A DNA stretch of 64,000 nt from Aquilaria yunnanensis (Eukaryota > Streptophyta > Magnoliopsida > Malvales > Thymelaeaceae). Both the position numbers and the translations under genes were made by a program. Position 1 is the first letter of the stretch. Every line of letters begins with the position of its first letter. The stretch spans positions 11,100,501 through 11,164,500 of the forward strand of contig CM077599.1 of NCBI GenBank assembly GCA_039654915.1. The letters run 5' to 3'. The notes under the pieces are model-generated. The model searched no databases and was not told where the DNA came from. It saw only the letters and a list, made by a program, of their open reading frames with translations. Below, piece after piece: positions 11,879 through 61,191 of this stretch.

Positions 11879-12058
11879 TGTAAACGTGCATATGTTATTG
11901 TATTATGTAATGTTCTCGTTTACTAATTAACTTTTAATATATATGTAAACAGCAACTGAAACTTCAACTTGAAGCCTACAATATGATTGAGCAAGTTTTA
12001 TTTCAATGTTTGAATGTACTTTATGTAAACTTTTGTATGGGATTTCATAATAATGTAG

Positions 12059-22860: not shown

Positions 22861-22863
22861 ATC

Positions 22864-38243: not shown

Positions 38244-39764
38244 TGGAAGAAAAATGGCATCTGTTTTCCAATGTTTTCTAACTTGAAGTTTGGTTTTGAA
38301 CTAAATAAGTTAGATATTATCATAAGGTTAAAAATGGAATTATATTGAGGTGCTAGCTGAATAGACAAAGAAAATAAAAAAAAAAAATATTTGAGGCTTA
38401 TTTATTCCACAAAATATTAATTTTCACTGAAAATTTTTTAGATCTTGTCTACAAATGCTGATAAGAACTCCAAAACTAGAAATGCTTGAGCTTGGTTTGA
38501 GACACTAGTTGATCATAAAAAACAATAAAGAAAGAAAAAAAAAAGGACTATCTTATTCCTCCCATTGAGTATTTTCGTATTTGTCACTCAAAACCTTTGA
38601 TCTTATCTATGAGAGAATTCCAAGCTTTTGAAAACAAAATTCTAATAACAATACTAATATGATTTGCGACTTAGAAATAGACAAACTTATTGAGAGACAA
38701 TATATAGTGTTTTTTTTTTATTTTAGCAGGAAAAGCATCAAGACAAATAACAATGCTTTGTCTGGACTTAATTTATAAGGTGAGAGAAGATAAAGTTGGG
38801 GATAAATTGTTTCCTCACTATGTGAAAAAAAAGTAAAAGAAGGAAATGGAAGATTAATTGGCCACCCTCTCCTTTTATTTCATTTTATCCAAACAAATAA
38901 GTCACCAAAACTATCTCTTCTTTCCTCTTCCCTATTAATCCAAATAGGTAAGAGCCTAATAATTTAAGAGCTCATAGTATTTCTCATTATTAAGATTTGT
39001 CTTTCATCATTTTTAGTTGTTGTCTTGACCATTCAGCATGCGTAGCAAGCAAATGTCGAAGGCCATGAGCCAACTAACTTTTGGTAAAGCGTTAACACTT
39101 ATATTTATTAAATGGGCCTACCATGGGTGATGATTTCATTGAAAGTCATATCATTTCAAACAAGACAATGAGAGTAACTAGTCTTATTAGTCGTTCAAAT
39201 GAATCAACACTCTATTAGGCTATAAAAGATTAGCGGTCAAAGTTTTCAAGATAAATTATTTTTTCTTCATTATTTTTCCTAATATATTCTAAGCACAAAA
39301 AAAAAAAAAAAAAAAAGCTCAATGATTAGAAAAATTTGTGGGAACGTGGATATATCAAACAAAAAGAAAGGAGAAGGTTTCCTCTCATATGTACGAGAGA
39401 TTAAGAGGGAAATGTAAGTTGAATTTTGGAAGTTGAATTTCGAATCTCATATGAGAACTGTAATGTTTTAATTACTTGATCAAGGTTGGCTTGTTAAAAG
39501 AATAAAAGATAAATGACAATATAAAAAATCTGTTTCTTTATTTTTTAAAAAAGAAAATAAAGTTTCCCTTATTCTATCAGCAACATTTTAACATTTGGTT
39601 GGATTCAAAATAAATTACGTAATATTATCCCTCTAATATTTTATTTTATATTTTTTCCTGATATATTTTTTTATAAGCTAAAACATCTTTACAAGTATAT
39701 TAATATATAAGATATTAAGATATAAAATTTTAAATTATTTTGGTTCCTCTCTATATATTGAACT
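38244..39764. other. AT-rich spacer up to the large LTR element; last 40 bp belong to duplicated segment B
   Basis: No gene is recognised. Poly-A runs occur (39297-39316). From about 39725 the sequence matches 31580 onward, so the left flank of segment B is only a short piece before the LTR element interrupts it. Confidence 0.5.
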
Positions 39765-40268
39765 TGTTGACACCCAATTTCGTCCGGGTGTTTTAAAATT
39801 TTGAAAAAAATTTTATTAAAAAAAATTAATTTAAAAAAAATATATTACTATTATTATTAAAAAAAAATTTAATTAGTTTAAAATATATTTTTGTTTTGTG
39901 AAAATTTGATTTAAAATGATATATGTGTGAATATGTGTATGTTTGAAATAAAATAAAATTTCATGAAAAAAATGACAAAAAATTAAAAGTTTGAGGTAAA
40001 AATGACAAAATTGAGAAGTTTTCGGAAAAAATTGACAAATTCTAAAAGTTCCAGGAGCATTTGGTAGTTTGTCACATAAAATTTTGAGCCTGCCGACGTT
40101 TTTGGCTCAAATTGACAGAAAACGACAAAATTGTCAAAATCAGAAGCTTCAGGAACTTATCCTGAGGCTGAGAGACGTAAAGGACTAAAATTGTCATTTT
40201 ACCAATTTAAGAGATAAGTTTGAAATTTTTTATTAATTTATCCATCAACAGTTCAGCTAAACTTCCTC

Positions 40269-40276
40269 TATAAATA
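40269..40276 (+). promoter_or_regulatory. TATA box of the 5' outer LTR
   Basis: CTCTATAAATAGCCCCCC is conserved in all LTR copies in the window (53771, 55109, 58369, and inverted near 22930). The conserved GTGCTGAACACA about 25 bp later probably marks the start of the RNA. Confidence 0.7.
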
Positions 40277-40889
40277 GCCCCCCAAATTTTGTGCTGAACA
40301 CACAAAAAAATAGACAGAAAGCTTAGAGCTCCGTTTTAGAAAAAATAAAAATTACAGACTTAGTCCCTGGCCCTCTTTCCTTTTCCCAGAAAGTCCCAAA
40401 AGTTTCTATTCTGACGTATAGACTATCTTCTTCCTCCGTTTTTTTTTCTGTTTCTTCCTTCTCCTTCGCTGCCCGTCGCTCCACGCCGTCCCGCCGCCGC
40501 TCATCGCTCCCCCACGCTGCCGTCGCGCCGTCCCCACCTGCCCCTGGCCGCGCTGCCGCCCCGCCGCCAGCTGCCTCTCCTTCCCCCCCTGCGCGCGCGT
40601 CTGTTTCTCACGTTCCCAGCAAAATTCAAAATTAAAACTAAAGGGTACAACCCTTGTTTTGTCCTCTATTTTTTTTATTTCTTTCACTTTGGTCACTAAC
40701 CTTTTATTTTGTTCTTGCAGAATTAATTCCTAACTATTTTAATTTTTACTTGTTTTACTTATTTGTTATTATTACTAACCCTTTTTTTTTGTTATTAACT
40801 TACTAACAACTAACTTTTAATATTATTATTGTTACTAACCTTTTAATTTTTGCATTATTACTAACTTTTATAATTGTTGTTAACAATTA

Positions 40890-41240
40890 ATTAACTTTTT
40901 ATTATTTTTGTTAATTAATTAATTAACTTGGCTAACTTTTATTGTTGTTAATTAATTAATTTAATTAACTTGGCTAACTTTTATTGTTGTTAATTAATTA
41001 ATTTAATTAACTTGACTAACTTTTTATTATTGTTGTTAATTAATTAATTTAATTAACTTGACTAACTTTTTATTATTGTTGTTAATTAATTAATTTAATT
41101 AGCTTGACTAACTTTTTATTATTGTTGTTAATCAATTAATTTAATTAACTTGACTAACTTTTTATTATTATTGTTAATCAATTAATTTAATTAAACTTGG
41201 CTAATTTTTATTATTGTTGTTAATTAATTTAATTAACTTT
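40890..41240 (+). repeat. AT-rich tandem repeat inside the LTR
   Basis: About nine units of 40-44 bp of the form GTTAATTAATTAATTTAATT followed by AACTTGACTAACTTTTTATTATT. The right outer LTR has the same array at 58990-59340, and the inner LTR has a differing version at about 55570-55970. Confidence 0.85.
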
Positions 41241-41494
41241 GCTAACCTTTATTATTATTTATTTTTAAAGTGGATGGCCAAAAAGCCCCACTTTATTATT
41301 ATTAATTTTCCTTTATATAATTTTTTTTAATTTAATTCACCTTTACCCTTACTTAAATAAATAAATGAAAATTAAAAGAAGATTATTTTTTAAGCCTAAT
41401 AAAAATAATTTTTTAAAAAGCCAATTATTTTTATTTTTCTTTTATAAATTGAATAATTATTTAAATAATAAATAACTTTCACTAAAAAAAAACT

Positions 41495-41740
41495 AAAAGA
41501 AAGATAAGAAAAAGATAAGAAAGATAAGAAAAAGATAAAAAAAGAAAAGAAAGAAAGAAAAGAAAGAAAAGAAAGAAAAGAAAAAGAAAAGATAAAAAAA
41601 GAAAAGAAAGAAAGAAAAGAAAGAAAAGAAAAAGAAAAGAAAAGAAAAGAAAGAAAAGAAAGGAAAAATAAAACTAAAAGAAAGATAAAATCAAAAAGAA
41701 AGAAAAGAAAGAAAGAAAAGAAAGAAAAGAAAAGAAAGTG
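41495..41740 (+). repeat. GA-rich microsatellite-like run in the LTR
   Basis: Mixed AAAGA and AAGAAAAG units. The right outer LTR repeats it at 59595-59840. The inner LTR has only a short form near 56395-56450. Confidence 0.85.
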
Positions 41741-42347
41741 TAAAGAATAAAAAATAAATTTTTTAGATTATTAATAAATCTAAAAACAAAAGACTTACAA
41801 ATTAGTAATAATAAATTCCATAAAAATAATAATTATATAACTAACAATTAATTAAAGTAATTTCCATATCCGGATGATCCAGCAGGATTTACGGTTTGGA
41901 AAATATCAAACTTTCAAAATAAATAAATTAAATAAAAAGATAAAAATCCATATTTTTACGATATGGATTAAAATTTTCACCAAGTTCCGTGTCCAAATGA
42001 CTCGGCAGAGTCCATGGTTCGGAATAAAAATCTTCCGTGTCCAAATGACTCGGCAGAGTCCATGGTTCGGAAGTATAAAATTCTATACAAATTAATTACC
42101 AAAAATCCACATCCGATTAATTCAGTTAAAAATTCTAGATTGAAAATTAACTGAAATTTATTTAAAAGCAAAGCGAAACAAAATTAAAATCAACTAAGGT
42201 GCCAATTTTTGGGCGTTTTAACAAAGTTGTTTTAACGTAACCGTACTCCCGAACCCCCGAACTCTCGTAGACCAATATTTAAGGTGACCAATCGACCTAG
42301 GTAAACTGATTGGTGGCGACTCCCGAAAACCCGACGTTGCCACAGCT

Positions 42348-42365
42348 TGGCGACTCCACTGGGGA
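42348..42365 (-). promoter_or_regulatory. Primer-binding site complementary to tRNA-Arg
   Basis: TGGCGACTCCACTGGGGA begins three bases after the LTR end. It is the complement of a tRNA 3' end (acceptor stem, discriminator G and CCA) that I recognise as plant tRNA-Arg(ACG). A second, longer match lies at 57067-57105. Confidence 0.82.
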
Positions 42366-44099
42366 AGCGACGTTAGTGAGTCGAGCCTACAAGTTGATTT
42401 GTTTTGATTTGCTTTGCTTATGTTTATGTGGATTTATATGTTATATTTACTTAGGTAAACATGCATTATGCATTCACAATATGAAGTTCCATACCCGAGC
42501 TTCTTCAAAGCGAACACGTTCTTTCTAAGCGGAATTGGTGTTGTTGTCCTTGAGAGGCCATGGTCTCCAAGCCTTCACCGGTTTCAAAGTAGCAAAGTAG
42601 TGTATTGCCTTCTGAGACGGTTAGTCTTTGCATGGGCCCACGAAAAGCTACGACTCGAATTAATCCATTCCTTACATAAACCCTAGAGGGTAAGGAATCG
42701 GGCTGTCACTATAATTTAGTGACGGGATTCGGGAACTATCCCTTGCCTTTTTGATAAGCCACCTTATGCATATAGAACTCCCCACTTAACCATAGAACTG
42801 ACCATAGAATTTCTACCATTTTACCAACGCCATAAGCATATCCTTGTTATGCTGTGTTGTTACTCTACACTTTTCTTCGTATGGTTTTAACTTGTTTATC
42901 CATAATACTTCATGAGTTATTAATTGCTATTTAACTTATTAATAACCTTATCTTTCTTTTGTTATACTTCTGTTTTGTGCAATTTTCTTCATGCATCAAA
43001 ACCACGCATCAAACTATAATAACTTTTGGTCTTTCTAATGACAACTAGAAGTCTTAAGTTCCATGATAATGGATAATCAAACTCACTCATTGCATGCATG
43101 CATCCATTGCATCAATCACATACACATAGAAGTTAATAAAATGAATCTTACTTTAAAAGGGTAAAATTGGATCTCAACATCGATATTCAACTCGGCTCCA
43201 AACAAGACTAATGGCAGAACAAACCAAAGGACGTCTCATAGATATAGAGTCCAAGATAGAAAATATGGCCGGAGCAATTCCCTCCTCATTACACCAAAAA
43301 ATGAAATTCATTTTTGAAGGAAAGTTAATCACAGTCTTTGCTGAATAAGGCATTCTGCTATCATCTATATCAATAGTAGCAAAGGCCAAGTGACCTTCTC
43401 TTTCAAGTTGGTGTGACCCAAATGTCAAATATAACTGAAAATTGTGTGGCACTGAAACTCAAGGTCCAACAGTTGGCCGAGTTTAAGTTGCTAGGCTCGA
43501 TGTGATTGGTAATTGAAAGTGAAGATTTTGAGCTGGAATTACATTAATTTTGGAAGGGCTCCAAGTCAGATCTGACCTAACAGTTCGCACACATTTTTGA
43601 ATGACAGGGAATCCTTTGAATAAACTTGTATCTTTGATAGCTTGCCAAAGTAATCTAATAGTAAAAATCTCCTAGATTTAGTCCAGAATCTAGGTTATAG
43701 TCTTTGTTAAATGGGCACCTGGTATTCTTTTTCTTGGTACAACAAAAAGATGTAATGTGTGCATTCTACCACTTTTTACTAAAATTCCAATTTTACATCC
43801 ACATATTCTACCACTTTCTACCAAATATTTCATTTTTCTTACATCTATCTCTCACTCCTTTCCATTATACTATCCATTATTGCTATCATACTTTGCTTTC
43901 TAAATGATACTACTCGTGGGTGAAAATAAAAAGTTAAGGGAAATTTGATAGTAATGATCTTGAAAGTGCTGCCAAATCTAGTAAGAAGGATTTCATATGT
44001 TGCACCTCAACCCTAAAAAAGAATTCACAGTGGTTATCAACATCCTTGCAAGAAGTTTGGGGTTAGTTTCCAAACAAGGTAGCTCTCATATTAAATGAC

Positions 44100-44630
44100 T
44101 TCAGTGGCTTCCCAATTCTCATAAATGCTCAAAAAAAAAAAAAAAAAAAAAGGTTCTCAGTTTTCCGCAACACAAACTCCGAAAAGAAAAAGTTCATCCC
44201 TTCCATAAAAAAGCCATTAAAGGGAAAATCAAAAAAAAAAAGAGAGACTGAGAAGCAAATAAAGCCACTTGAGTCATCTCACTTCAAGAGGGCTATGATC
44301 TCGGTTCTCCATAACACAAACTCCAAAAAAAAAAAAGGGAAAAAGTTCATCCCTTCCATCAAAAAGCCAACAAGGGAAAATTCAAAACAAAAAAAAAAGA
44401 GAGACTGAGAGCAAACACAAGCAAGTAAGGCCACTTGAATCATCTCATTTCAAGAAGGCTATGATCTCGGTTCTCTGTAACAAAAACTCCGAAAAGGAAA
44501 AAGTTCATCCCTTCCATCAAAAAGCCAACAAGGGAAAATTCAAAACCAAAAAGAACTGAGAACAAGCACGAGCAAGCAAGGCCACTTGAGTCATCTCACT
44601 TCAAGAAAGTTATCAAATATGTCATCACCA
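44100..44630 (+). repeat. About 150-bp tandem repeats
   Basis: Three to four imperfect copies sharing AAAAAGTTCATCCCTTCCAT, AAAAAGCCAACAAGGGAAAA and GCCACTTGAGTCATCTCACT. Confidence 0.8.
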
Positions 44631-44989
44631 TAGCTCACACAAAAAAAAAAAGGAACAAAAAAAAAAAAACAAAAAAAAAACAAAATAAAAAAAAACAAAA
44701 CAGAAAAAAAGAAAGGGAAACAAAAACAAAAACAAAAAAAAAAAAGAAAGGAAAAAAAGGGCTCAAACTAGAGCAAAAGAAAAAAAAAGAAAACAAGTGA
44801 GCTATGGATTCTAAACTGAAAACCTGCGAAGGCGGTCTAGAAGACAAAAGCAACTTTCAAGCCAAGCATACATAAAGACCACGATAGTTGGGGGGCAACA
44901 GATGAGGTTTAACTTTCTGGAAAGAGTGGCAAGTTTGAGGTCATCACTATTGAGTTTTTCATCATAATCAAATTTGCTCACGAGTAGTA

Positions 44990-45440
44990 TTAAAAGACCC
45001 TTCTTTCAAACCACTTAAACTTAACTTTCCTCAGACTTATCATCCTCATTCAGCTAAAAGACTATCATTGTGAAACATGTTTCTACCTTATTTAATACTG
45101 CTCACGAGTAGTATTAAAAGACCATTCTTTCACACCACTTAAACTTAACTTTCCTCAGACCTAACATCCTCATTCAGTCAAAAGACTATCATTGTGAATC
45201 ATGTTTCTACCTTATTTAATGCTGCTCATGAGTAGTATTAAAAGACCCTTTTTTCACACCACTCAAACTTAACTTTACTTAGACCTAATATTTACCTCTT
45301 AATATTATTCTCATTCAGCTAAAAGACTGCCACAAAAAAAAAAACATTCAAACTTAACTTTCCTCACATCTAACATTTACCTCTCGATATCATACTCAGT
45401 CAGTTAAAAGGCTATTATTGTAAATCATGTTTCTACCTTA
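44990..45440 (+). repeat. About 120-bp tandem repeats
   Basis: Four imperfect copies sharing GAGTAGTATTAAAAGACC, ACTTAACTTTCCTCAGAC and CATGTTTCTACCTTATTTAA. Confidence 0.8.
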
Positions 45441-46334
45441 TTGCCTTGCACAGTTTATGTCTTCGAGTTGGAAAGGGAAGAATGGCAGGATATTTTAATT
45501 AAAAACAAAGACCGTAAATTACTTTGTCAAGCTTTGCAAATTGATGAAAGTTTTTCTTTAAGGCCAAACCATTATTCATTAATGTATGTAGACTTAAAAG
45601 TGAGGACATAGCTTGAGTCTTTCTTTAATAAGATGTGGTTCTTGTAAGAGAAATTTACGATCAAGTGCCATCACAAAGGTCTAGAAATGCTCGACCTTCT
45701 GTTAAATCAAAGGCGAGATGATATCTCTTTCCACATAAACACCATATTCAGGGGGGCAAAGTAGTCTCTACGAAGCGTAAGAGGAGTACCACCAACAAAG
45801 AAGTTCAATAGACAAGGGGGCAAGTCTTATGGATCAAAACATGAGTTCAAGGAAGAGCAATCATTCAGATTATAACATGGGAATAAGTAAGTGTCGGCAC
45901 GGTCACAAGAAAAGGGGCAAAGCAGACATTGAAAGTAAAGCCTTTGATGGTATCAAATCCATGACAATGGATGAGTACCCGAAAGAGATATAAATTATGA
46001 GGCGGGCCAACTTTAAAGAAATTGAGGCCAAAATTCAAAGAACAAGTCAAAGAAAGAGGATTTTGAAAAGAGTTGGGCTTTTGAGGCAGCGAACAAAAGC
46101 TGGAAAGCATAAAGAGATTCAATGATAGTCCAAGAAGCCATCACAAAGAGGATCCAGTAAAACAAAGACATAAAGAATTAGATCCATACAAAAAAAAAAA
46201 GCCATTAGTTACACATGCTCTGCATTCATGCATTTCATATCATGCATACATAGCCTTTACATAACAAGGACCAAACGGGAAGCACATCCACGGCACAGCT
46301 ACAACAATATAAGCTGAGATCTCAATGTCATCAG

Positions 46335-46760
46335 CTCTTACCAATCTATCACTGGATACACAGCTAATATGCGGGACCAACCCGCATCAGGAATTCAAGA
46401 ATAAAGTAGACAATATTGTCAAAAGCTTGGCTACCGATTCAATAATCGAGGCTACACCTGGAAGGATCGGATTGACGCCAGCTAGTAGTATCCAAGATAA
46501 GAGATAGCTATAGCCAAGGATAAGGCAGATATAAAAAAAAATATAAAGTAGACAATATTGTCAAAAGCCTGGCAATTGATTCAATAATCGAGGCTACACC
46601 TGGAAGGACAGGATTGATGCCAGCTTAGCAGCATCCAAGATAAGAGATAGTCAAAGATAAGGCAGACATCAAGAAATATTGTCGTTGAAAATTTGTCAAA
46701 AAGCGGGCAATGGATTTAATAATCGAGGACTGGATCGACGTCAGCTCGATGGAATATAAA
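46335..46760 (+). repeat. About 140-bp tandem repeats upstream of the first cargo gene
   Basis: Three imperfect copies sharing AGTAGACAATATTGTCAAAAGC, TTCAATAATCGAGGCTACACC, and CAGCTTAGCAGCATCCAAGA or close variants. The third copy is the most diverged. Confidence 0.75.
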
Positions 46761-46906
46761 AAATATCTATCACATCAAAATGAAGTAGGATCCACTTTTC
46801 CGGTTAAACGGCGGATACGGTACTCCGTGACTCTCAAGTCGGTTCTCTCAGTTGCCCATAATAACTGATTCCTTCACCCCTTCTTTCTTTTACTTCCTCC
46901 TAGAAA

Positions 46907-47455
46907 ATGGATCCTACTTTTTCCGCCTTGCGAAAGTATTTCCCTTCTCTCCCAATGAACATTCTCAAAAAGATCTACCAAGTTCGCTGTGAACGATTAA
47001 GAGTTCTGATGCACAAAGGAATCCCTGAAGATGTGCGGTGGTTAATCGAAGCCAAGGTTCGTTTGGCAGGTGAAATCCCAGAGGCATTTGTGTCTTACAT
47101 GCCTGGTATAGGCAAAAGCTCTTATGCCAAAAAGCGAAGAGCGAAAAGATTACAAGTCTGCCATAAATGTGGTAGGTGGACTTGTAATACTAAATGTCGT
47201 TCTTTAGGAATGATCTCTGATAATCGAGAAGATAAAATACGATTCATTAAGAATGGCCTGAGTAAGGACTCGTTGGATGATATCCAATTGACTCTTGAGA
47301 CGCATTCTTGTGGATCCGTGCAACATGAACTTCTTGGTTTATGGAGCATTTTTCATGAAGAACGAGAACGATACAGTCCCGAGAATCTGACTGTAAACGA
47401 CCCTGTTTGCCAGCTTGTAAGAAAACTGGATGGCAAGCAAATCCTCGACTCATAG
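46907..47455 (+). CDS. Cysteine-rich basic protein, cargo cassette 1 (unknown family, zinc-finger-like)
   Basis: The ATG at 46907 opens 182 residues (MDPTFSALRKYFPSLPMNIL). A basic stretch KKRRAKR at residues 75-81 sits just before C-x2-C-x4-C-x3-C at 85-97 (CHKCGRWTCNTKC), a likely zinc-binding knuckle. The rest is predicted helical. Two more copies follow at 47744 and 48509, so this is a tandem family. The layout, a basic patch directly before a compact Cys motif, recalls the small cysteine-rich nucleic-acid-binding proteins of some plant RNA viruses (carlavirus type). That resemblance is from memory and weak, and the N-terminal 70 residues look unrelated. Nucleic-acid binding is inferred. 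The frame is intact and intronless. Confidence 0.72.
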   Translation: MDPTFSALRKYFPSLPMNILKKIYQVRCERLRVLMHKGIPEDVRWLIEAKVRLAGEIPEAFVSYMPGIGKSSYAKKRRAKRLQVCHKCGRWTCNTKCRSLGMISDNREDKIRFIKNGLSKDSLDDIQLTLETHSCGSVQHELLGLWSIFHEERERYSPENLTVNDPVCQLVRKLDGKQILDS

Positions 47456-47743: not shown

Positions 47744-48292
47744 ATGGATTCTACTCTTTCCGCCATGCGAAAATACTTTCCTTCCATCCCAATAAATGTT
47801 CTTAAAATGATTTACCAAGCTAGATGTGAAAGGATTAGAGTCTTTATGCACAAAGGCATTCCTGACAATGTGCGGTGGCTAATTGAAGCTAAGGTTCGTT
47901 CAGCTGGTGAAGTTCCAGAAGCGTTCTTTCCCCGTATGCCCGGCCTTGGTAAAAGCGCTTATGCCAAAAAGCGAAGAGCAAAAAGGCTAGGTGTCTGTCA
48001 TAAATGTGGACGATGTAATTGTAATACTAAATGTCGCTCTTTAGGATACATCTCCAGAAATCATGAAGATAAAAGAAAATTCATCAAGAATGGCCTGCGT
48101 AAGGAATCTTTGGATGATATCCTATTAACTTTTGAAACACATTCTTGTGAAATAGTGCAATGGGAAATTATGGATTTATGGTGGACTTTCTGTAAAGAAC
48201 AGGATCGTTACAGTCTTGGAAATCTAACTTTTAATGACCCTGTTTGCCAGTTTGTGAGAAAACTGGATGGGAAGCAAATCCCCGACTTATAG
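47744..48292 (+). CDS. Cysteine-rich basic protein, cargo cassette 2
   Basis: A second 182-residue intact copy (MDSTLSAMRKYFPSIPINVL). It aligns with cassette 1 without gaps. The basic stretch KKRRAKR and the Cys motif CHKCGRCNCNTKC are kept, with an extra Cys inside the motif. The leader before it (TCCGGTTAAGTAGCGGATGC...) is a diverged copy of the leader before cassette 1 (TCCGGTTAAACGGCGGATAC at 46799), so whole cassettes with promoter and leader were duplicated. Many substitutions separate the copies but both frames stay open and the Cys and basic residues are kept, which suggests selection on the protein. Function unknown; nucleic-acid binding is inferred. Confidence 0.72.
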   Translation: MDSTLSAMRKYFPSIPINVLKMIYQARCERIRVFMHKGIPDNVRWLIEAKVRSAGEVPEAFFPRMPGLGKSAYAKKRRAKRLGVCHKCGRCNCNTKCRSLGYISRNHEDKRKFIKNGLRKESLDDILLTFETHSCEIVQWEIMDLWWTFCKEQDRYSLGNLTFNDPVCQFVRKLDGKQIPDL

Positions 48293-48508: not shown

Positions 48509-49057
48509 ATGGAGTCTTCTCTTTCCGCCCTATGAAAGTATTTTCCTTCCTTCCCAATAAATGTTCTTAAAAAGATTTATCAAGCTAGATGTGAACGATT
48601 CAGAGTATTTATGCACAAAGGCATTCCTGATAATGTGCGGTGGCTAATTGAAGCTAAGGTTCGTTCAGCTGGTAAAGTTCCAGAAGCGTTCTTTCCCCGT
48701 ATGCCCGGCTTTGGTAAAAGCGCTTATGCCAAAAAAAGAAGAGCAAAGAGGCTAGGCGTTTGTCATAATTGTGGATGGTGGATTTGCGGCAATAAATGTC
48801 GTTCTCCAGGAGTGATCACCAGAAATCGTAATGATAGAATAAGATTCATTAAGAATGGCTTGCGTAAGGAATCTCTAGAAGATATTCGAGAGGTTCTTAA
48901 AGCGCATTCTTGCGGAATAGTGCAATTTGAGGTTGTTGGATTATGGATAATTTTCCAAAAAGAACGAGATCGTTACAGTCTTGGGAATCTGACCCTAAAC
49001 GACCCTGTTTGCCAGTTTATGAGAAAGCTAGATAAGATGCAAATCACCGATTCATAG
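48509..49057 (+). pseudogene. Cysteine-rich basic protein, cargo cassette 3, stop at codon 9
   Basis: The third copy starts MESSLSAL and then hits TGA at 48533-48535, where copies 1 and 2 have CGA (Arg). This is a C-to-T change in a CpG. The frame otherwise stays open to 49057 with the same full length. An internal ATG at 48611 could give 148 residues that still hold the basic KKRRAKR stretch and the Cys motif CHNCGWWICGNKC. It is either a recent pseudogene or a shortened version. The open frame after the stop implies that the stop is recent. Confidence 0.75.
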
Positions 49058-49064
49058 AAAGCAT

Positions 49065-49560
49065 TGAAGCCATTACTGGACGCAAAGCCAGTGGAAGACG
49101 ATAATCAAAGTCACGATTACTGTACGTGCTAGCTGTCGCTTTTGAAATTTTCCTCCCCTTTTGGTAATAATGTATCCACTCCTAACGTGAACCAAAGTCA
49201 CGATTACTTTACGTACTAGCTGTCGCTTTTGAAATTTTCCTCCCCTTTCAGCGATAATGTATCCACTCCTGACATGAGCCATAGTTACGATTACTGTACG
49301 TGCTAGCTGTCGCTTTTGAAATTTTCCTCCCCTTTGGCAATAATGTACCCACTCCTGACACGGACTACTGTATATAGCTGCCACTTTTGAAATTTTCCTT
49401 CCCTTCCAACAATCACGTACCTACTCCTGACGTAAGCTACAGTAGTGACTACTGTACATGCTAGCAGCTATTTTGAAAATTTTCCTCCTCTTTTAACGAT
49501 AGTGTACCCATACCTGACCAGAGTCATACTCGTGACTACTGTGTATAGCTGGCAATAATG
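49065..49560 (+). repeat. Tandem repeats between cassette 3 and the LOG gene
   Basis: Five to six imperfect units of about 85-110 bp share GATTACTGTACGTGCTAGCTG, TTTTGAAATTTTCCTCCCCT and AATAATGTATCCACTCCTGAC. A related sequence follows cassettes 1 and 2 once each, so the repeat is an amplified form of the 3' flank of a cassette. Confidence 0.85.
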
Positions 49561-49604
49561 TATCCACTCTTGAAAATAAAATTATTGCCTTATCTCTTCA
49601 TCTC

Positions 49605-49612
49605 TATAAATA
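49605..49612 (+). promoter_or_regulatory. TATA block upstream of the LOG gene
   Basis: CTATAAATATA follows TTATCTCTTCATCT, 40 bp before the ATG at 49645. It leaves only about 10 nt of leader if transcription starts 30 bp downstream. An ATG at 49558 in the same frame lies upstream of this TATA and is therefore not favoured as the start. Confidence 0.5.
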
Positions 49613-49644
49613 TATCCTCTTTTCTCACAAGGATAAGGATAGGA

Positions 49645-50268
49645 ATGGAGAAAACCCCAACTCGTAAATCCCGAAGTATTTGTGTATTTTCTGGGGCTTT
49701 TCCTGGAAAAGATGAAGAGTATTTAAAGGCAGCCAACCATTTGGGTAGAGTATTAGCTGAGCGAAAAATACATTTAGTTTATGGAGGAGGTAGTGTCGGA
49801 TTAATGGGAGGTGTAGCATCAGCAGCATCTTTAGGAGGAAGTCAAGTTTTGGGCATCATCCCTGGACCTTTGAAATTTGTTTCTGGGGGCACGATTGGAG
49901 AAGAATTAGTGGTTAAAAATTTGCAAAAGCGTGTGTTACAAATGCTTTTAAATGCTGATGCTTTTATCGCTATACCAGGTGGTTTTGGCACATTGGGAGA
50001 AGTCTTTCAAATTGCTTCCATGGCCCAACTTAATAAGAAACCCATTGGGCTTTTAAATGTTAACAATTTCTTTACAAGTCTGATAGCTTTTATGGATTAT
50101 GCTATGCAGAAGAATTTCATATCAAGAGTGACACGGCGAATCATAATATCCGCAACAACTGCTGAAGAATTACTAGATAAAATACAAGCTTTTGTTCCTG
50201 AACCAGATCCAGCAATGATTCAGATAGACTGGACACGACAGTCTTTCCCGACCAGTTCACTCCCATAA
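49645..50268 (+). CDS. LOG: LOG-type cytokinin riboside 5'-monophosphate phosphoribohydrolase, carried by the LTR element
   Basis: LOG enzymes release free, active cytokinin bases from their riboside monophosphates in the cytosol. The 207-residue protein from the ATG at 49645 (MEKTPTRKSRSICVFSG) is the normal length. Family motifs are intact: GGGSVGLMG at residues 47-55, the conserved Arg at 96 (NLQKRVLQM), and PGGFGTLGE at 111-119 with the final Glu. It is clearly diverged from the plant LOGs I remember (IASMAQLNKKPIGLLN in place of the usual ITWAQ...KPVGLLN). Plant LOG genes have several introns and this has none, so it was probably captured as cDNA or came from another source. It lies within the LTR element, downstream of the three cysteine-rich cassettes, and has a similar TATA block. 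The frame is undamaged. Confidence 0.9.
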   Translation: MEKTPTRKSRSICVFSGAFPGKDEEYLKAANHLGRVLAERKIHLVYGGGSVGLMGGVASAASLGGSQVLGIIPGPLKFVSGGTIGEELVVKNLQKRVLQMLLNADAFIAIPGGFGTLGEVFQIASMAQLNKKPIGLLNVNNFFTSLIAFMDYAMQKNFISRVTRRIIISATTAEELLDKIQAFVPEPDPAMIQIDWTRQSFPTSSLP

Positions 50269-50810
50269 TGGTCCTCTACTCACCCTGTTGAAGTATTGTG
50301 GAAGAAAGAAGCGATCTGATCCGTTTTTCTTGTCCTTTAGTTTTATTATCAGCATTTTCTTTCGCGTTTCAGTTTTTCCTTTTAGGGAATTTCTTTTTTT
50401 TTATAATATAGTTTCGTCAAGGCTGATATTAAAACCATAGGACAATGCCTTTAGGTTGGAATGGCTGAGTAAAGAGTAATTTTTGTTACTCTTGAGACGC
50501 ATCCTATTAGGTCTACTAGGCATAACATTTTGGGGTAGTTAAGCTTTAACCTTATTCGGATGACATATCTCACAAGGGAATCTATATTTACTGAAGAAAA
50601 TATTAGATGAACCTTGAATATTGATTCCAAACATCCGTTCCCTTTACATAATTTGTCAGTGTTATTGTCATCATCAAGATTCACTCGTTTTATCGAAGCC
50701 TAATTCTTTGCGCTCGCCTATTATGAAAATTCACACTTTCAAAGAAAATTATTACAATTTCAATTGCTTTCATATAAATTTCGCTCGAGGTCCTAAGGAA
50801 AGCTCCTTAG
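50269..50810 (+). other. LOG 3' flank, no further gene
   Basis: AT-rich sequence between the LOG stop and the start of the tandem array. A CTCGAGG-type start of the repeat appears near 50785. No ORF with features is seen. Confidence 0.5.
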
Positions 50811-52905
50811 CCTCAAAATCAATTTTCATCATCGGGGTTTTAAGGATGGAACCTTTGCCTCGAAAACAATCAATTTTCATCATCGGGGTTTTAAGGATGG
50901 AACCTTTGCCTCGAAAATAATCAATTTTCATCATCGGGGTTTTAAGGATGGAACCTTTGCCTCGAAAAGAATCAATTTTCATCATCGGGGTTTTAAGGAT
51001 GGAACCTTTGCCTCGAAAATAATCAATTTTCATCATCGGGGTATTAAGGATGGAACCTTTGCCTCGAAAACAATCAATCAATCAATCCGAGGTTTTAAGG
51101 ATGGAACCTTTGCCTCGAGATCAATCAATCAATTCGAGGTTTTAAGGATGGAACCTTTGCCTCGAGATCAATCAATCAATTCGAGGTTTTAAGGATGGAG
51201 CCTTTACCTCGACATCAATCAATCAATTCGAGGTTTTAAGGATGGAACCTTTACCTTGAAATCAATCAATCAATCCGAGGTTTTAAGGATGGAACCTTTG
51301 CCTCGAGATCAATCATCATCGAGGTTTTAAGGATGGAACCTTTACCTCGACATCAATCAATCAATCCGAGGTTTTAAGGATGGAACCTTTGCCTCGAAAA
51401 CAATCAATTTTCATCATCAGGGTTTTAAGGATGGAACCTTTGCCTCGAAAACAATCAATTTTCATCATCGGGGTTTTAAGGATGGAACCTTTGCCTCGAA
51501 AATAATCAATTTTCATCATCGGGGTTTTAAGGATGGAACCTTTGCCTCGAAAATAATCAATTTTCATCATCGGGGTTTTAAGGATGGAACCTTTGCCTCG
51601 AAAACAATCAATTTTCATCGGGGTTTTAAGGATGGAACCTTTGCCTCGAAAATAATCAATTTTCATCATCGGGGTTTTAAGGATGGAACCTTTGCCTCGA
51701 AAACAATCAATTTTCATCATCGGGGTTTTAAGGATGGAAGCTTTGCCTCGAAAATAATCAATTTTCATCATCGGGGTTTTAAGGATGGAACCTTTGCCTC
51801 GAAAATAATCAATTTTCATCATCGGGGTTTTAAGGATGGAACCTTTGCCTCGAAGATAATCAATTTTCATCATCGGGGTTTTAAGGATGGAACCTTTGCC
51901 TTGAAAACAATCAATTTTCATCATCAGGGTTTTAAGGATGGAACCTTTGCCTCGAAAAGAATCAATTTTCATCATCGGGGTTTTAAGGATGGAACCTTTG
52001 CCTCGAAAAGAATCAATTTTCATCGCCGGGGTTTTAAGGATGGAACCTTTGCCTCGAAAACAATCAATTTTCATCAATCCGAGGTTTTAAGGATAGAACC
52101 TTTGCCTCGAAATCAATCAATCAATCCGAGGTTTTAAGGATGAAACCTTTGCCTCGAGATCAATCAATCAATCCGAGGTTTTAAGGATAGAACCTTTGCC
52201 TCGAGATCAATCAATCAATCCGAGGTTTTAAGGATAGAACCTTTGCCTCGAGATCAATCAATCAATCCGGGGTTTTAAGGATGAAACCTTTGCCTCGAGA
52301 TCAATCAATCAATCCGAGGTTTTAAGGATAGAACCTTTGCCTCGAGATCAATCAATCAATCCGGGGTTTTAAGGATGGAACCTTTGCCTCGAGATCAATT
52401 ATCAATCCGAGGTTTTAAGGATGGAACCTTTACCTCGACATCAATCAATCATCGGGGTTTTAAGGATGGAACCTTTGCCTCGAAATCAATCAATCAATCC
52501 AAGGTTTTAAGGATGGAACCTTTACCTTGACATCAATCAATCAATCCGAGGTTTTAAGGATGGAACCTTTGCCTCGAGATCAATCAATCGTCGAGCTTTT
52601 AAGGATGGAACCTTTGCCTCGACATCAATCAATCAATCCGGGGTTTTAAGGATGGAACCTTTGCCTCGAGATCAATCAATCAATCCGAGGTTTTAAGGAT
52701 AGAACCTTTGCCTCGAGATCAATCAATCAATCCGAGGTTTTAAGGATAGAACCTTTGCCTCGAGATCAATCAATCAATCCGGGGTTTTAAGGATGGAACC
52801 TTTGCCTCGAGATCAATCAATCAATCCGAGGTTTTAAGGATAGAACCTTTGCCTCGAGATCAATCAATTAATCCGAGGTTTTAAGGATGGAACCTTTGCC
52901 TCGAA
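50811..52905 (+). repeat. Tandem array of 51-bp and 47-bp units (about 43 copies)
   Basis: All units share GAGGTTTTAAGGATGGAACC followed by TTTGCCTCGA. Two linker types alternate in blocks. AAAACAATCAATTTTCATCAT gives 51-bp units (50811-51060 and about 51385-52075). ATCAATCAATCAATC gives 47-bp units (51060-51385 and 52075-52905). CGAGG and CCTCG at the ends of each core are complementary, so each unit can fold. Tandem repeats in this position are known from Tat-lineage elements and can seed satellites. Confidence 0.95.
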
Positions 52906-53155
52906 AACAAATAATCAATCAATCAGTCCATCTTACAACGATAGGAGCTTTCCTATCGTTAGAGGTTCTAAGGACATTTCCTTAACCTAAAACAAACAAT
53001 CAATCCATCAGTCCATCTTACAACGATAGGAGCTTTCCTATCGTTAGAGGTTCTAAGGACCTTTCCTTAACCTCAAACAAATAATCAATCAATCAGTCCA
53101 TCTTACAACAATAGGAGCTTTCCTATCGTTAGAGGTTTTAAGGACCTTTCCTTAA
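52906..53155 (+). repeat. Three 88-bp hairpin repeats before the polypurine tract
   Basis: Three near-identical units share TCCATCTTACAACGATAGGAG, CTTTCCTATCGTTAGAGG and TCTAAGGACCTTTCCTTAACC. ACGATAGGAGCTTTCCTATCGT is a palindrome with a short loop. The same three-unit block recurs at 54250-54490 and 57505-57755, each time before an LTR. Confidence 0.9.
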
Positions 53156-53249
53156 ACCTTACTGTTTGGGCGGCGAGAACATTCTCAATGCCTACCTAAG
53201 CCGGACGAAATTTGGTAACGACTTTGCATACATCATGTCCCATGAAGCA

Positions 53250-53265: not shown

Positions 53266-54060
53266 TGTTGACACCCAATTTCGTCCGGGTGTTTTAAAAT
53301 TTTGAAAAAAATTTTATTAAAAAAAATTAATTTAAAAAAAAAAAATATATTACTATTATTATTAAAAAAAATTTAATTAGTTTAAAATATATTTTTGTTT
53401 TGTGAAAATTTGATTTAAAATGATATATGTGTGAATATGTGTGTGTTTGAAATAAAATAAAATTTCATGAAAAAATGACAAAAAATTAAAAGTTTGAGGT
53501 AAAAATGACAAAATTGAGAAGTTTCGGAAAAAATTGACAAATTCTAAAAGTTCCAGGAGCATTTGGTAGTTTGTCACATAAAATTTTGAGCCTGCCGACG
53601 TTTTTGGCTCCAATTGACAGAAAACGACAAAATTGTCAAAATCAGAAGCTTCAGGAACTTATCCAGAGGCTGAGAGACGTAAAGGACTAAAATTGTCATT
53701 TTACCAATTTAAAAGATAAGTTTGAAATTTTTTATTAATTTATCCATCAACAGTTCAGCTAAACTTCCTCTATAAATAGCCCCCCAAATTTTGTGCTGAA
53801 CACAGAGAAAAATAGAAAGAAAAGCTTAGAGCTCCGTTTTTTTAAAATAGAAAAAATTACAGCCTTAGTCCCTAGCTCTCCTTCCTTTCCTCAGAAAATC
53901 TCAAAACTTTTCATTTTGACGATTAAGCCATCTTCTTCCCCCCGTCGCGCGCCCTCTGTTTCCATTTCTCAGAATTCAGAATTTAAAATCAAGGGTACAA
54001 CTCTCATTTAATCCTTCATCTTTTCAATTTCTTTCACTTTGGTTACTAACTTTGTATTTT
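53266..54060 (+). repeat. Inner LTR copy 2, truncated to its first 795 bp
   Basis: Starts TGTTGACACCC and follows the inner LTR at 54605-55398 almost base for base (offset 1338-1339), with TATA at 53771. It breaks at TTGTATTTTAAATCC and is followed by a short unrelated junction and a perfect hairpin at 54100-54142. It belongs to a different subtype from the outer LTRs: for example, it lacks their GC-rich block. Confidence 0.9.
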
Positions 54061-54099
54061 AAATCCGGGTTTCTTTGGTTTCTTTGGTTTCTTTCACGT

Positions 54100-54604: not shown

Positions 54605-57063
54605 TGTTGACACCCAATTTCGTCCGGGTGTTTTAAAATTTTGAAAAAAATTTTATTAAAAAAAATTAATTTAAAAAAAAAAATATATTACTATTATTAT
54701 TAAAAAAAATTTAATTAGTTTAAAATATATTTTTGTTTTGTGAAAATTTGATTTAAAATGATATATGTGTGAATATGTGTGTGTTTGAAATAAAATAAAA
54801 TTTCATGAAAAAATGACAAAAAATTAAAAGTTTGAGGTAAAAATGACAAAATTGAGAAGTTTCGGAAAAAATTGACAAATTCTAAAAGTTCCAGGAGCAT
54901 TTGGTAGTTTGTCACATAAAATTTTGAGCCTGCCGACGTTTTTGGCTCCAATTGACAGAAAACGACAAAATTGTCAAAATCAGAAGCTTCAGGAACTTAT
55001 CCAGAGGCTGAGAGACGTAAAGGACTAAAATTGTCATTTTACCAATTTAAAAGATAAGTTTGAAATTTTTTATTAATTTATCCATCAACAGTTCAGCTAA
55101 ACTTCCTCTATAAATAGCCCCCCAAATTTTGTGCTGAACACAGAGAAAAATAGAAAGAAAAGCTTAGAGCTCCGTTTTTTTAAAATAGAAAAAATTACAG
55201 CCTTAGTCCCTAGCTCTCCTTCCTTTCCTCAGAAAATCTCAAAACTTTTCATTTTGACGATTAAGCCATCTTCTTCCCCCCGTCGCGCGCCCTCTGTTTC
55301 CATTTCTCAGAATTCAAAATTTAAAATCAAGGGTACAACTCTCATTTAATCCTTCATCTTTTCAATTTCTTTCACTTTGGTTACTAACTTTGTATTTTAT
55401 TCTTGCAGAATTAATTACTAACCCTTTTAATTTTTACTTGTTTGTTTATTATTTGTTTATTACTAACCCCTTTTTTTATTGTTGTTATTAACTTACTAAC
55501 AACTAACTTTTAATACTATTATTGTTACTAACCTTTTAATTTTTGCATTATTACTAACTTTTATAATTGTTGTTAATTAATTAATTTAATTAACTTGGCT
55601 AACTTTTATTATTGTTGTTAATTAATTAATTTAATTAACTTGGCTAGCTTTTTATTATTGTTGTTAATTAATTAATTTAATTAATTTGGCTAACTTTTTA
55701 TTTATTGTTGTTAATTAATTTAATTAACTTGGCTAGCTTTTTATTATTGTTGTTAATTAATTAATTTAATTAATTTGGCTAACTTTTTATTATTGTTGTT
55801 AATTAATTAATTTAATTAACTTGGCTAACTTTTTACTGTTGTTAATTAATTAATTTAATTAACTTGGCTAACTTTTTATTATTGTTGTTAATTAATTAAT
55901 TTAATTAACTTGACTAACTTTTTATTATTATTGTTTAACAATTAATTTAATTAACTTTGCTAACATTTATTATTATTTTTAAAGTGGATGGCCAAAAAGC
56001 CCCACTTTATTATTATTAATTTTTTTTTCTTTATATAATTTTTTTATTTAATTCACCTTTACCCTTTACTAATTAATAAATAAATGAAAATTAAAAGAAG
56101 ATTATTTTGTAATTAATTATTAAGGCTAATAAAAATCATTTTTAAAAAAAGCCAATTATTTTTATTTTTATATACATGTTTTTAATTCTTTAAAGATAAC
56201 AAAAAGTTAAAATTAATTTTAATAGTTATTTTTATCCAGTAAAAATAATAAAAAATAAAAATAAAACCTGTTTAAAAAAAATACATGAAAATTAAGACTT
56301 TATATTTTACTGATTTATTTAAAATATAACTTTTAAATCCACTAAAATAATAAATATTTTTCATTAAACAAGAAAACAAAAAGAAAACTAAAACAAGATA
56401 AGAAAAAGATAAGAAAGACAAGAAAAAGAAAAGAAAAGAAAATAAAAAATAAAAATTTTTTTATCTAAAAATTCTATAACAAAAAGAATTACGAATTAGT
56501 AATTAAACTAATAATTAATTCCATAAAAATAAGAATTAAATAATTAACTATAAATTAAATCAACTTACATATCCGGATGATCCGTCAGGATCTGCGGTTT
56601 AAAAAAAATATCACCCTTTTAATTAAATAAATTAAATAAAAAAAAAAGATAAAAATCCATATTTACAATATGGATTAAATTATTTAAAAGTTCACCAAAT
56701 TCCGTGTCCAAATGACTCGGCAGAGTCCATGGTTCGGAATCAAAAATCTTCCGTGTCCAAATGACTCGGCAGAGTCCATGGTTCGGAAGTATAAAATTTC
56801 ATACAAATTAATTAATTTAAAAATCCACATTTCGACTAATCCAGTTAAAATTTCTAATTTTGAAAATTAACTGAGAATTATTTAAAAGCAAAGCAAAACA
56901 AAATTAAAATCAACTAAGGTGCCAATTTTTGGGCGTTTGAACAAAGTTGTTTTAACGTAACCGTACTCCCGATCCCCGAACTCTCGCAGACCAATTTTAA
57001 GGTGACCAATCGACCTAGGTAAACTGATTGGTGGCGACTCCCGAAAGCTGCGACGTTGCCACA
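54605..57063 (+). repeat. Inner LTR copy 3, full length (2459 bp), different subtype
   Basis: Runs from TGTTGACACCC to GACGTTGCCACA. Compared with the outer LTRs it lacks the GC-rich block (outer 40430-40610), has a different version of the AT-rich tandem array, and a much shorter GA run. TATA is at 55109. It is followed directly by the extended tRNA-like match, not by the normal leader. Confidence 0.93.
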
Positions 57064-57066
57064 GCT

Positions 57067-57105
57067 TGGCGACTCCACTGGGGATCGAACCCAGAATCTC
57101 TGGTT
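57067..57105 (-). promoter_or_regulatory. Extended primer-binding site: about 39 nt complementary to the 3' half of a tRNA-Arg
   Basis: The normal 18-nt site TGGCGACTCCACTGGGGA continues with TCGAACCCAGAATCTCTGGT. On the minus strand this reads as the 3' side of a tRNA anticodon stem, variable loop, a T arm (CTGGG-TTCGATC-CCCAG) with the GGTTCGATCC B box, the 3' acceptor strand and CCA. It matches plant tRNA-Arg(ACG) as I remember it. At GGTT it switches into the tandem array. In the complete 5' end at 42348 only 18 nt are present. Confidence 0.85.
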
Positions 57106-57504: not shown

Positions 57505-57864
57505 AACAAATAATCAATCAATCAGTCCATCTTACAACGATAGGAGCTTTCCTATCGTTAGAGGTTCTAAGGACATTTCCTTAACCTAAAACAAACAATC
57601 AATCCATCAGTCCATCTTACAACGATAGGAGCTTTCCTATCGTTAGAGGTTCTAAGGACCTTTCCTTAACCTCAAACAAATAATCAATCAATCAGTCCAT
57701 CTTACAACAATAGGAGCTTTCCTATCGTTAGAGGTTTTAAGGACCTTTCCTTAAACCTTACTGTTTGGGCGGCGAGAACATTCTCAATGCCTACCTAAGC
57801 CGGACGAAATTTGGTAACGACTTTGCATACATCATGTCCCATGAAGCATGCAAAGGGGGGCAGC
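57505..57864 (+). repeat. Third copy of hairpin repeats, 3' region and polypurine tract
   Basis: Three 88-bp hairpin units, the GGGCGGCGAGAACATTCTC region and GCAAAGGGGGGCAGC directly before the right outer LTR. Confidence 0.9.
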
Positions 57865-60444
57865 TGTTGACACCCAATTTCGTCCGGGTGTTTTAAAATT
57901 TTGAAAAAAATTTTATTAAAAAAAATTAATTTAAAAAAAATATATTACTATTATTATTAAAAAAAAATTTAATTAGTTTAAAATATATTTTTGTTTTGTG
58001 AAAATTTGATTTAAAATGATATATGTGTGAATATGTGTATGTTTGAAATAAAATAAAATTTCATGAAAAAAATGACAAAAAATTAAAAGTTTGAGGTAAA
58101 AATGACAAAATTGAGAAGTTTTCGGAAAAAATTGACAAATTCTAAAAGTTCCAGGAGCATTTGGTAGTTTGTCACATAAAATTTTGAGCCTGCCGACGTT
58201 TTTGGCTCAAATTGACAGAAAACGACAAAATTGTCAAAATCAGAAGCTTCAGGAACTTATCCTGAGGCTGAGAGACGTAAAGGACTAAAATTGTCATTTT
58301 ACCAATTTAAGAGATAAGTTTGAAATTTTTTATTAATTTATCCATCAACAGTTCAGCTAAACTTCCTCTATAAATAGCCCCCCAAATTTTGTGCTGAACA
58401 CACAAAAAAATAGACAGAAAGCTTAGAGCTCCGTTTTAGAAAAAATAAAAATTACAGACTTAGTCCCTGGCCCTCTTTCCTTTTCCCAGAAAGTCCCAAA
58501 AGTTTCTATTCTGACGTATAGACTATCTTCTTCCTCCGTTTTTTTTTCTGTTTCTTCCTTCTCCTTCGCTGCCCGTCGCTCCACGCCGTCCCGCCGCCGC
58601 TCATCGCTCCCCCACGCTGCCGTCGCGCCGTCCCCACCTGCCCCTGGCCGCGCTGCCGCCCCGCCGCCAGCTGCCTCTCCTTCCCCCCCTGCGCGCGCGT
58701 CTGTTTCTCACGTTCCCAGCAAAATTCAAAATTAAAACTAAAGGGTACAACCCTTGTTTTGTCCTCTATTTTTTTTATTTCTTTCACTTTGGTCACTAAC
58801 CTTTTATTTTGTTCTTGCAGAATTAATTCCTAACTATTTTAATTTTTACTTGTTTTACTTATTTGTTATTATTACTAACCCTTTTTTTTTGTTATTAACT
58901 TACTAACAACTAACTTTTAATATTATTATTGTTACTAACCTTTTAATTTTTGCATTATTACTAACTTTTATAATTGTTGTTAACAATTAATTAACTTTTT
59001 ATTATTTTTGTTAATTAATTAATTAACTTGGCTAACTTTTATTGTTGTTAATTAATTAATTTAATTAACTTGGCTAACTTTTATTGTTGTTAATTAATTA
59101 ATTTAATTAACTTGACTAACTTTTTATTATTGTTGTTAATTAATTAATTTAATTAACTTGACTAACTTTTTATTATTGTTGTTAATTAATTAATTTAATT
59201 AGCTTGACTAACTTTTTATTATTGTTGTTAATCAATTAATTTAATTAACTTGACTAACTTTTTATTATTATTGTTAATCAATTAATTTAATTAAACTTGG
59301 CTAATTTTTATTATTGTTGTTAATTAATTTAATTAACTTTGCTAACCTTTATTATTATTTATTTTTAAAGTGGATGGCCAAAAAGCCCCACTTTATTATT
59401 ATTAATTTTCCTTTATATAATTTTTTTTAATTTAATTCACCTTTACCCTTACTTAAATAAATAAATGAAAATTAAAAGAAGATTATTTTTTAAGCCTAAT
59501 AAAAATAATTTTTTAAAAAGCCAATTATTTTTATTTTTCTTTTATAAATTGAATAATTATTTAAATAATAAATAACTTTCACTAAAAAAAAACTAAAAGA
59601 AAGATAAGAAAAAGATAAGAAAGATAAGAAAAAGATAAAAAAAGAAAAGAAAGAAAGAAAAGAAAGAAAAGAAAGAAAAGAAAAAGAAAAGATAAAAAAA
59701 GAAAAGAAAGAAAGAAAAGAAAGAAAAGAAAAAGAAAAGAAAAGAAAAGAAAGAAAAGAAAGGAAAAATAAAACTAAAAGAAAGATAAAATCAAAAAGAA
59801 AGAAAAGAAAGAAAGAAAAGAAAGAAAAGAAAAGAAAGTGTAAAGAATAAAAAATAAATTTTTTAGATTATTAATAAATCTAAAAACAAAAGACTTACAA
59901 ATTAGTAATAATAAATTCCATAAAAATAATAATTATATAACTAACAATTAATTAAAGTAATTTCCATATCCGGATGATCCAGCAGGATTTACGGTTTGGA
60001 AAATATCAAACTTTCAAAATAAATAAATTAAATAAAAAGATAAAAATCCATATTTTTACGATATGGATTAAAATTTTCACCAAGTTCCGTGTCCAAATGA
60101 CTCGGCAGAGTCCATGGTTCGGAATAAAAATCTTCCGTGTCCAAATGACTCGGCAGAGTCCATGGTTCGGAAGTATAAAATTCTATACAAATTAATTACC
60201 AAAAATCCACATCCGATTAATTCAGTTAAAAATTCTAGATTGAAAATTAACTGAAATTTATTTAAAAGCAAAGCGAAACAAAATTAAAATCAACTAAGGT
60301 GCCAATTTTTGGGCGTTTTAACAAAGTTGTTTTAACGTAACCGTACTCCCGAACCCCCGAACTCTCGTAGACCAATATTTAAGGTGACCAATCGACCTAG
60401 GTAAACTGATTGGTGGCGACTCCCGAAAACCCGACGTTGCCACA
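57865..60444 (+). repeat. Outer 3' LTR (2580 bp)
   Basis: Matches 39765-42344 at a constant offset of 18,100 without a difference in the stretches I compared. It ends GTTGCCACA and is followed by the GAACT target duplication. Confidence 0.95.
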
Positions 60445-61191
60445 GAACTCATTTCATTCAAGAAGAAAAAGCTACTAATTTAAATTATTTATTTACTATT
60501 TAAAAATATTAAACCGTTTAAATTTACTGTAAGACAATTACCAAATATTTAAATCAGAATTTTAAATTTATGTCAAATAATTATTTTGAGTTAACAAATT
60601 TTATTTGGTGATAGACCAAAACAAAACAATTTTAATAGATGTAGGACCAAAACAAGACACTTAACATATCAAAAACTAAAATGAAATAATAATTAAAGAT
60701 TAGAGATCATTTATACAATTTATTCAAGAACCAAACGTACATTTGATTTAAGGTTATTTGGAGTTATTCAATACGAATTTAATTGAACTTTTCGTCTTTT
60801 CCGCTGTTCGTATTCGCAGACACGAAAATCACACTAAGGTTTGATAATGGTTTGATAATGCAATAAAATAGATGGAATGGATTTCGGGAAAAAAAAAAGA
60901 TGGAATGGACCATTTGATATGGATTTTACGACCTCCAATTACAAATTAAGAAAAGGACTATACAAATAAAACACTAATGAATTAAATGGAGAGATTCCAT
61001 TAACTACTTCTTCAGCATCACAATAAATCATGATGTTAAAAGATAAATAAATCATGACAAGAGCCGATATTCCATCAGGGATAAAACTCATGGTGCACAT
61101 GGAATGATCTGCTACCTTTCATGCACCCTAGCGTAAAAATTTAAAATTATTCTTGTTAAAATCTCACAATTCAAGTCATATCTCTCCTTAT

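Follow-up and report, generated by a model that had tools for sequence, protein, structure and literature searches.

Two Athila-like elements similar to LOGL4 were reportedly described by Steinbauerova and colleagues in 2011. This earlier report of a LOG-type domain in elements (Steinbauerova et al. 2011, Genetica) is cited in PMC9289625, whose relevant section records a YgdH/LOG domain in Gypsy consensuses of Citrus sinensis and C. clementina and, with the filter off, of Populus trichocarpa; it also notes a G-patch domain in Gypsy elements. LOG cargo as such is already known, and the novelty of the present family is partial. The suggestion in the first-pass annotation of the locus that such cargo might be undescribed is not supported, given the Citrus and poplar elements (PMC9289625). 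In the portion of PMC6317226 that concerns domain order, an additional RNase H between RNase H and integrase (RH-aRH-INT) is the feature by which two clades of Tat elements, Ogre and Retand, are recognized. For the cysteine-rich proteins (CRPs) of carlaviruses, PMC12172455 describes, in the part relevant here, a basic motif resembling a nuclear localization signal (NLS) together with a zinc-finger Cys cluster; these proteins are commonly silencing suppressors, and CVB p12 is a transcription factor that induces hyperplasia. How transposable elements of plants capture genes, in LTR retrotransposons by template switching, has been reviewed (PMC13317346, in the relevant part). No report of carlavirus-like nucleic-acid-binding protein (NABP) genes in LTR retrotransposons was found in the open-licence literature searched.

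The window is the whole stretch of Aquilaria yunnanensis DNA that was analyzed, 64,000 nucleotides in length. It contains a complete LTR retrotransposon of 20,680 bp (39765-60444), inside which the LOG gene lies (Table 1). Matching LTRs, a target duplication, a putative primer site and a purine tract were all found. The primer-binding site is presumably of the tRNA-Arg type, and the same or a nearly identical stretch follows the 5' LTR in eight of ten other copies of the family; it was not seen there in the remaining two. The ORF, the Pfam and PDB matches and the LTRs agree with the first-pass description of an intact, intronless LOG frame with its motifs inside an LTR retrotransposon. The recent movement proposed from identical outer LTRs was likewise borne out: the two LTRs agree at all 2580 bp, and GAACT flanks the element at either end. 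LOG is one gene of a larger cassette, whose three NABP-like ORFs the first-pass annotation did not mention.

Table 1. Features of the LOG-carrying element (positions in the window).
Feature	Position	Strand	Basis or remark
Target-site duplication GAACT, left	39760..39764	.	Flank comparison
5' LTR, 2580 bp	39765..42344	+	100% identical to 57865-60444
Putative primer-binding site TGGCGACTCCACTGGGGA	42348..42365	+	Just after 5' LTR
Leader and remnant region, no pol	42366..46906	+	Translated search; Pfam scan of internal frames
N1, carlavirus-NABP-like ORF, 182 aa, open	46907..47455	+	PF05515 4e-7, PF01623 2.5e-5
N2, carlavirus-NABP-like ORF, 182 aa, open	47744..48292	+	PF01623 3e-6, PF05515 5e-6
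N3, carlavirus-NABP-like ORF; here codon 9 is an in-frame stop	48509..49057	+	PF05515, PF01623
Spacer with ~87-bp tandem repeats; TATAAATA box at 49605-49612	49058..49644	+	Between N3 and LOG
LOG-family ORF, 207 aa, open, intronless	49645..50268	+	Pfam, TIGR00730 and PDB matches
Tandem repeats of ~47-51 bp, longer repeats at end	50786..53159	+	3' of LOG
Internal partial LTR copy, older type	53266..54061	+	LTR comparison
Internal LTR copy, older type	54605..57084	+	Resembles LTRs of some other family copies
Purine tract AAAGGGGGG	57852..57860	+	Before 3' LTR
3' LTR, 2580 bp	57865..60444	+	100% identical to 39765-42344
Target-site duplication GAACT, right	60445..60449	.	Flank comparison

Little of the coding region for transposition was detected in the window element. 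Of gag, a translated search based on the frame of another copy, L015, recovered a trace of 22 residues (43172-43237); the corresponding search with the pol frame of copy L021 found no pol, and nine other internal frames gave zero Pfam matches. Copies of the internal tail lie between the two older LTR copies, all of them inside the identical outer LTRs, and the window element seems to be a composite that was transposed as one unit.

The insertion has a mixed neighborhood. At 8302-13702 lies a transposon of the CACTA type, in which Pfam recognized tnp2, DUF4218, DUF4216 and, weakly, Transposase_24. A DUF1005 gene split over two exons or frames is found at 23967-25434, with an inverted LTR fragment of the present family (22844-23446) just upstream of it. 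An exon at 37815-38240, some 1.5 kb upstream of the element, belongs to a gene resembling xyloglucan endotransglycosylase and encodes its C-terminal domain.

The family is abundant. When the 842-Mb assembly was searched with the LOG protein, the best 150 of 3659 loose candidates were scored, the window's own match included, and all 150 among the matches listed were free of stops. With an Arabidopsis LOG query, 146 of the 150 listed matches were stop-free; the two lists overlap by at least one place, and neither gives copy numbers or unbiased fractions. The matches to the Arabidopsis query were nearly full-length (about 576 bp), lay in a single frame and were 45-48% identical; we regard them as element copies (L005 is among them) and not as chromosomal LOG genes of the host. 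LOG matches were spread over contigs C1 to C8. This spread, the target-site duplication with matching LTRs, and the Pfam and PDB matches argue against an assembly artefact or a chance ORF, for which no support was found beyond the repeat-rich region. The likelihood of either is negligible, and both were dropped on these grounds.

Ten other copies from the LOG list were each examined as two 10-kb stretches. NABP-like genes, spacer, LOG and 3' repeats followed one another in identical order in all ten, the NABP-like genes numbering three in eight copies, two in one and four in one (L021). Downstream LTR matches were found in nine of the ten, and the two ends of the tenth match each other. In copy L014 (C4:45.6 Mb), one family member is apparently nested in the first NABP-like gene of another.

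A sample independent of LOG was drawn with LTR-end and leader DNA, a search in which the best 40 of 3809 candidates were scored; five copies were taken from the 39 other leader matches listed. All five carry NABP-like genes and LOG. The LOG frame is open in L049 and L051 and broken in the other three, L052 being frame-shifted near its end and L050 and L053 having two stops each. In a search for copies with and without the gene, as proposed in the first-pass annotation, LOG was present in 5/5 copies from the leader search.

Translated search detected pol in one of the ten other copies only, L021, in which RVT_1, RT_RNaseH, RVT_3 and rve are followed downstream by LOG and its four NABP-like genes. 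A G-patch frame adjoins pol in this copy (L021:8954-10000). A full-length frame match to gag was found in L015 and L025, and shorter gag traces in the seven remaining copies. Because the pol of L021 runs from reverse transcriptase (RT) through two successive RNase H domains to integrase, we assign the family to the Tat lineage of Ty3/gypsy, Ogre/Retand type; aRH between RH and INT was found in this one family copy. Identity within LTR pairs, compared over part or nearly the whole of their length in nine of the ten other copies, was 100, 100, 100, 99.96, 99.8, 99.7, 99.7, 98.8 and 96.7%; the copy comprising L021/L022 was left out, as its 5' LTR lies beyond the stretch examined.

We consider the window element to be a young, gag-pol-less copy of an amplified Tat-lineage family with a conserved cassette that would act for transposition, and give this whole account a probability of roughly 55%. 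The cassette consists, in sense orientation, of two to four NABP-like genes followed by an intronless LOG, and precedes the 3' LTR; where pol is present, in a single copy, the cassette stands between the two. Copies that have lost gag and pol would move with the enzymes of complete relatives. Against the full account stand the shortfall against NF058542, the low identity to plant and bacterial LOGs, the modest NABP match with its poor fold model, the deletion in the 207-residue LOG and the substitutions in copies that share it, the three broken frames among five leader-sampled copies, and the equal split of shared and private LOG variants.

The LOG-family protein of the window, which would have 236 aa if the alternative in-frame start at 49558 were used, matched PF03641 (Lysine_decarbox) with an E value of 8e-27 and 94.4 bits (Pfam cut-off, 27) and passed the cut-off of TIGR00730 (136.7 bits against 96.35). 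The SLOG cluster profile PF18306 likewise matched in Pfam. With NF058542, from a library for bacterial and archaeal annotation, it scored 81.9 bits, well below the equivalog cut-off of 300. Its closest solved structures are Arabidopsis At2g37210 (E, 4e-48) and At5g11950 (E, 4e-43). In an alignment, three forms of the retrotransposon LOG shared 44-46% identity with these two plant LOGs and 39-45% with two bacterial ones, and for this reason we regard them as a divergent LOG lineage. In a tree of seven sequences, the retrotransposon LOG grouped with the two plant LOGs (support 92/92). This placement was not relied on, as plants and bacteria were represented by two references each and the retrotransposon branch is long. 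A scan of viral contigs with LOG found no relatives.

The window protein keeps the motifs GGGSVGLMG and PGGFGTLGE, and also the Arg in KRVLQM, which we take to be the catalytic Arg. PGGxGTxxE and this Arg are retained in the window copy and the main subfamily, whereas four of the 33 copies compared have lost one or the other (P111S in three, R96H in one). Two residues, Leu-His in the main subfamily, are missing from the window LOG and present in all four solved LOGs aligned; in another loop, two residues are absent from all three retrotransposon forms aligned. The 207-residue form occurs in 5 of the 33 copies. Besides the window copy, three of these read SGGFGTLGE and one has His for Arg, leaving the window copy as the only one of the five with both the motif Pro and the Arg. 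Because of the two missing residues and these substitutions in its relatives, the 207-residue subfamily may be losing activity, and the open frame in the window need not mean an active enzyme. From its sequence, the main subfamily is the better candidate for an active LOG.

These features also bear on whether the LOG-like enzyme might serve the element through another nucleotide reaction, such as the splitting of AMP-like compounds or the binding of a nucleotide signal, and not through cytokinin. Identity of about 45% or less to plant and bacterial LOGs, the score below the NF058542 cut-off, the residues missing from all three forms with two more missing in the window, and the PF18306 match would fit such an activity. 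Against it, the main subfamily keeps GGGSVGLMG, PGGxGTxxE and the Arg, and the best solved relatives are plant LOGs. We consider another reaction rather unlikely.

The three NABP-like proteins of the window each score above the Pfam cut-offs for PF05515 and PF01623, covering 85-106 of the 227 positions of the PF05515 profile. Eleven family proteins were aligned, of which the window contributed two and three other copies the remaining nine; every one matched both profiles at E values up to 0.1, and the best value, 2e-7, is modest. Their layout is a basic stretch followed by a Cys cluster, C-x2-C-x4-C-x3-C, which is a putative zinc finger. The Cys columns are invariant in this alignment, and the basic, NLS-like columns invariant or nearly so. 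An AlphaFold model, made for the three window proteins only, had a pLDDT of 45.8 and was too poor to use, and a profile search of the PDB at E values up to 0.1 found no relative. The NABP assignment therefore rests on the profile matches and the motif layout. No relative was found in viral contigs scanned with N2 and the NABP alignment. The family also suggests that genes have passed, in one direction or the other, between retrotransposons and RNA viruses of plants.

Between two subfamilies of LOG, the window copy, the main form, C8_61.7 and L049 on one side and L051, L052 and L053 on the other, the dN/dS was 0.19-0.30 at a dS of 0.24-0.37 (12 pairs, two of these copies having broken frames). 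The ratio of L050 to the others was 0.17-0.34. The LOG of L050 (L050:1677-2306) is mosaic-like, its first part following one subfamily and its later part the other, and looks like the product of recombination between them. The recent pair L052 and L053 differs by six nonsynonymous changes and one synonymous change, which is near neutral. A dN/dS of 0.071 among 33 copies, all open, was set aside as biased because all copies but that of the window were picked by protein score. In the same 33 copies, the ratio of nonsynonymous to synonymous variants was 7:26 for shared and 7:26 for private variants. Damaged copies may have been filtered out by the protein search, which could explain the equal split, but the split lends no support to the shared/private pattern of N3 described below.

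On the question raised by the first-pass annotation, whether LOG in other copies is a degraded fragment with a dN/dS near 1, the answer was divided: the ratios between subfamilies lie well below this value, and three of the five leader-sampled frames are broken. A decayed-fragment reading of the window gene itself was considered and dropped.

N3 played no part in the choice of copies, and its dN/dS was 0.205 (30 copies). Where readable, it was intact in 26 of 32 copies and broken in 6. Variants shared by at least two copies were mainly synonymous (7 nonsynonymous to 18 synonymous) and private variants mainly nonsynonymous (39 to 20; Fisher P = 0.0018). Among the NABP paralogs of the window, dN/dS was 0.21, 0.22 and 0.36 at a dS of 0.42-0.87. 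Both gene types are under constraint, LOG between subfamilies and the NABP-like genes between paralogs, and many single insertions decay. The pattern suggests that selection acts on the transposing lineages.

A passive origin, in which LOG and the virus-like genes were acquired by template switching and hitch-hike without function, has precedent in the gene capture known for plant elements (PMC13317346, in the relevant part). It would account for the many broken copies of N3 and of the leader-sampled LOG and for the neutral-looking L052/L053 pair. It is unlikely, given the dN/dS between LOG subfamilies and between NABP paralogs, the mainly synonymous shared variants of N3, and the presence of NABP-like genes and LOG in all 15 other copies examined for both, even where pol was not found. 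The very many stop-free copies among the matches listed could instead indicate a benefit to the host, which would keep LOG copies for their cytokinin or use the NABP-like proteins to decoy viruses. This is very unlikely: nearly identical LTRs, private damage, and constraint on shared and not on private N3 changes indicate selection for transposition and not for retention at single loci.

The preferred reading, a cassette acting for transposition, would involve expression of its genes from their own promoters. TATAAATA lies 40 or 48 nt upstream of LOG in 38/38 copies, at 40 nt before the ATG in the window. It also lies 63-68 nt before N3 in all 22 copies in which the start pattern was found (38 searched), at 66 nt in the window. 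N2 of the window has TATAAA 127 nt upstream, whereas N1 has nothing but a TATAAA at a distance of 152 nt. The arrangement is compatible with separate transcripts for LOG and the NABP-like genes from predicted promoters but is no proof of them. Tandem repeats of about 87 bp precede LOG at 49098-49516, and one of them holds TGACGTAAG, presumably an as-1-like promoter motif.

Upon derepression of the element, LOG and at least two NABP-like genes would be transcribed from their own TATA promoters. The basic, Cys-rich proteins would act as nucleic-acid binders that either weaken RNA silencing or change transcription in the host, a role proposed from the functions of carlavirus CRPs and CVB p12 given in the relevant part of PMC12172455. 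LOG would release active cytokinin, and cells that keep dividing would yield more heritable copies of the element. More specifically, and only tentatively, the cassette could be a two-part kit for host manipulation, with a virus-type suppressor and/or transcription factor and a cytokinin enzyme, each with its own promoters and kept by selection. Such a kit would blunt silencing and push division, gag-pol-less copies that keep it would spread better, and the element would resemble a gall-inducing virus that stays in the genome. Extra genes are common in plant LTR retrotransposons and mostly without known use. Here they are recognizable and their likely activities can be assayed, making their use to the element testable through cytokinin release and through nucleic-acid binding or silencing suppression. 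As a caution, what is annotated as a LOG gene in a plant genome may belong to a transposon.

The closest described systems share some features with the present family. The Citrus and Populus Gypsy elements likewise have a LOG-family gene as an additional ORF, whereas the relevant section of PMC9289625 mentions no NABP-like genes; those consensuses were found through RT, whereas the present family has pol in one of ten other copies. Ogre/Retand elements, as treated in the relevant part of PMC6317226, share the RT-RH-aRH-INT order seen in L021 and the presence of additional ORFs. Their eORF proteins are described there as highly divergent, with no conserved features, whereas the extra ORFs of the present family match known families. 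The carlavirus NABP/CRP families (PF05515, PF01623) resemble the present proteins in profile match and in a basic stretch followed by a Cys cluster. The present proteins differ in having 182 aa, in occurring in two to four tandem copies, in their location in a retrotransposon, and in their Cys spacing of C-x2-C-x4-C-x3-C. AlkB is also present in plant viruses. The AlkB Gypsy elements of Phalaenopsis likewise carry an enzyme gene as an extra ORF. According to the relevant section of PMC9289625, the AlkB protein is an RNA demethylase active in vitro, whereas the present cargo is, from its sequence, a putative LOG accompanied by NABP-like genes.
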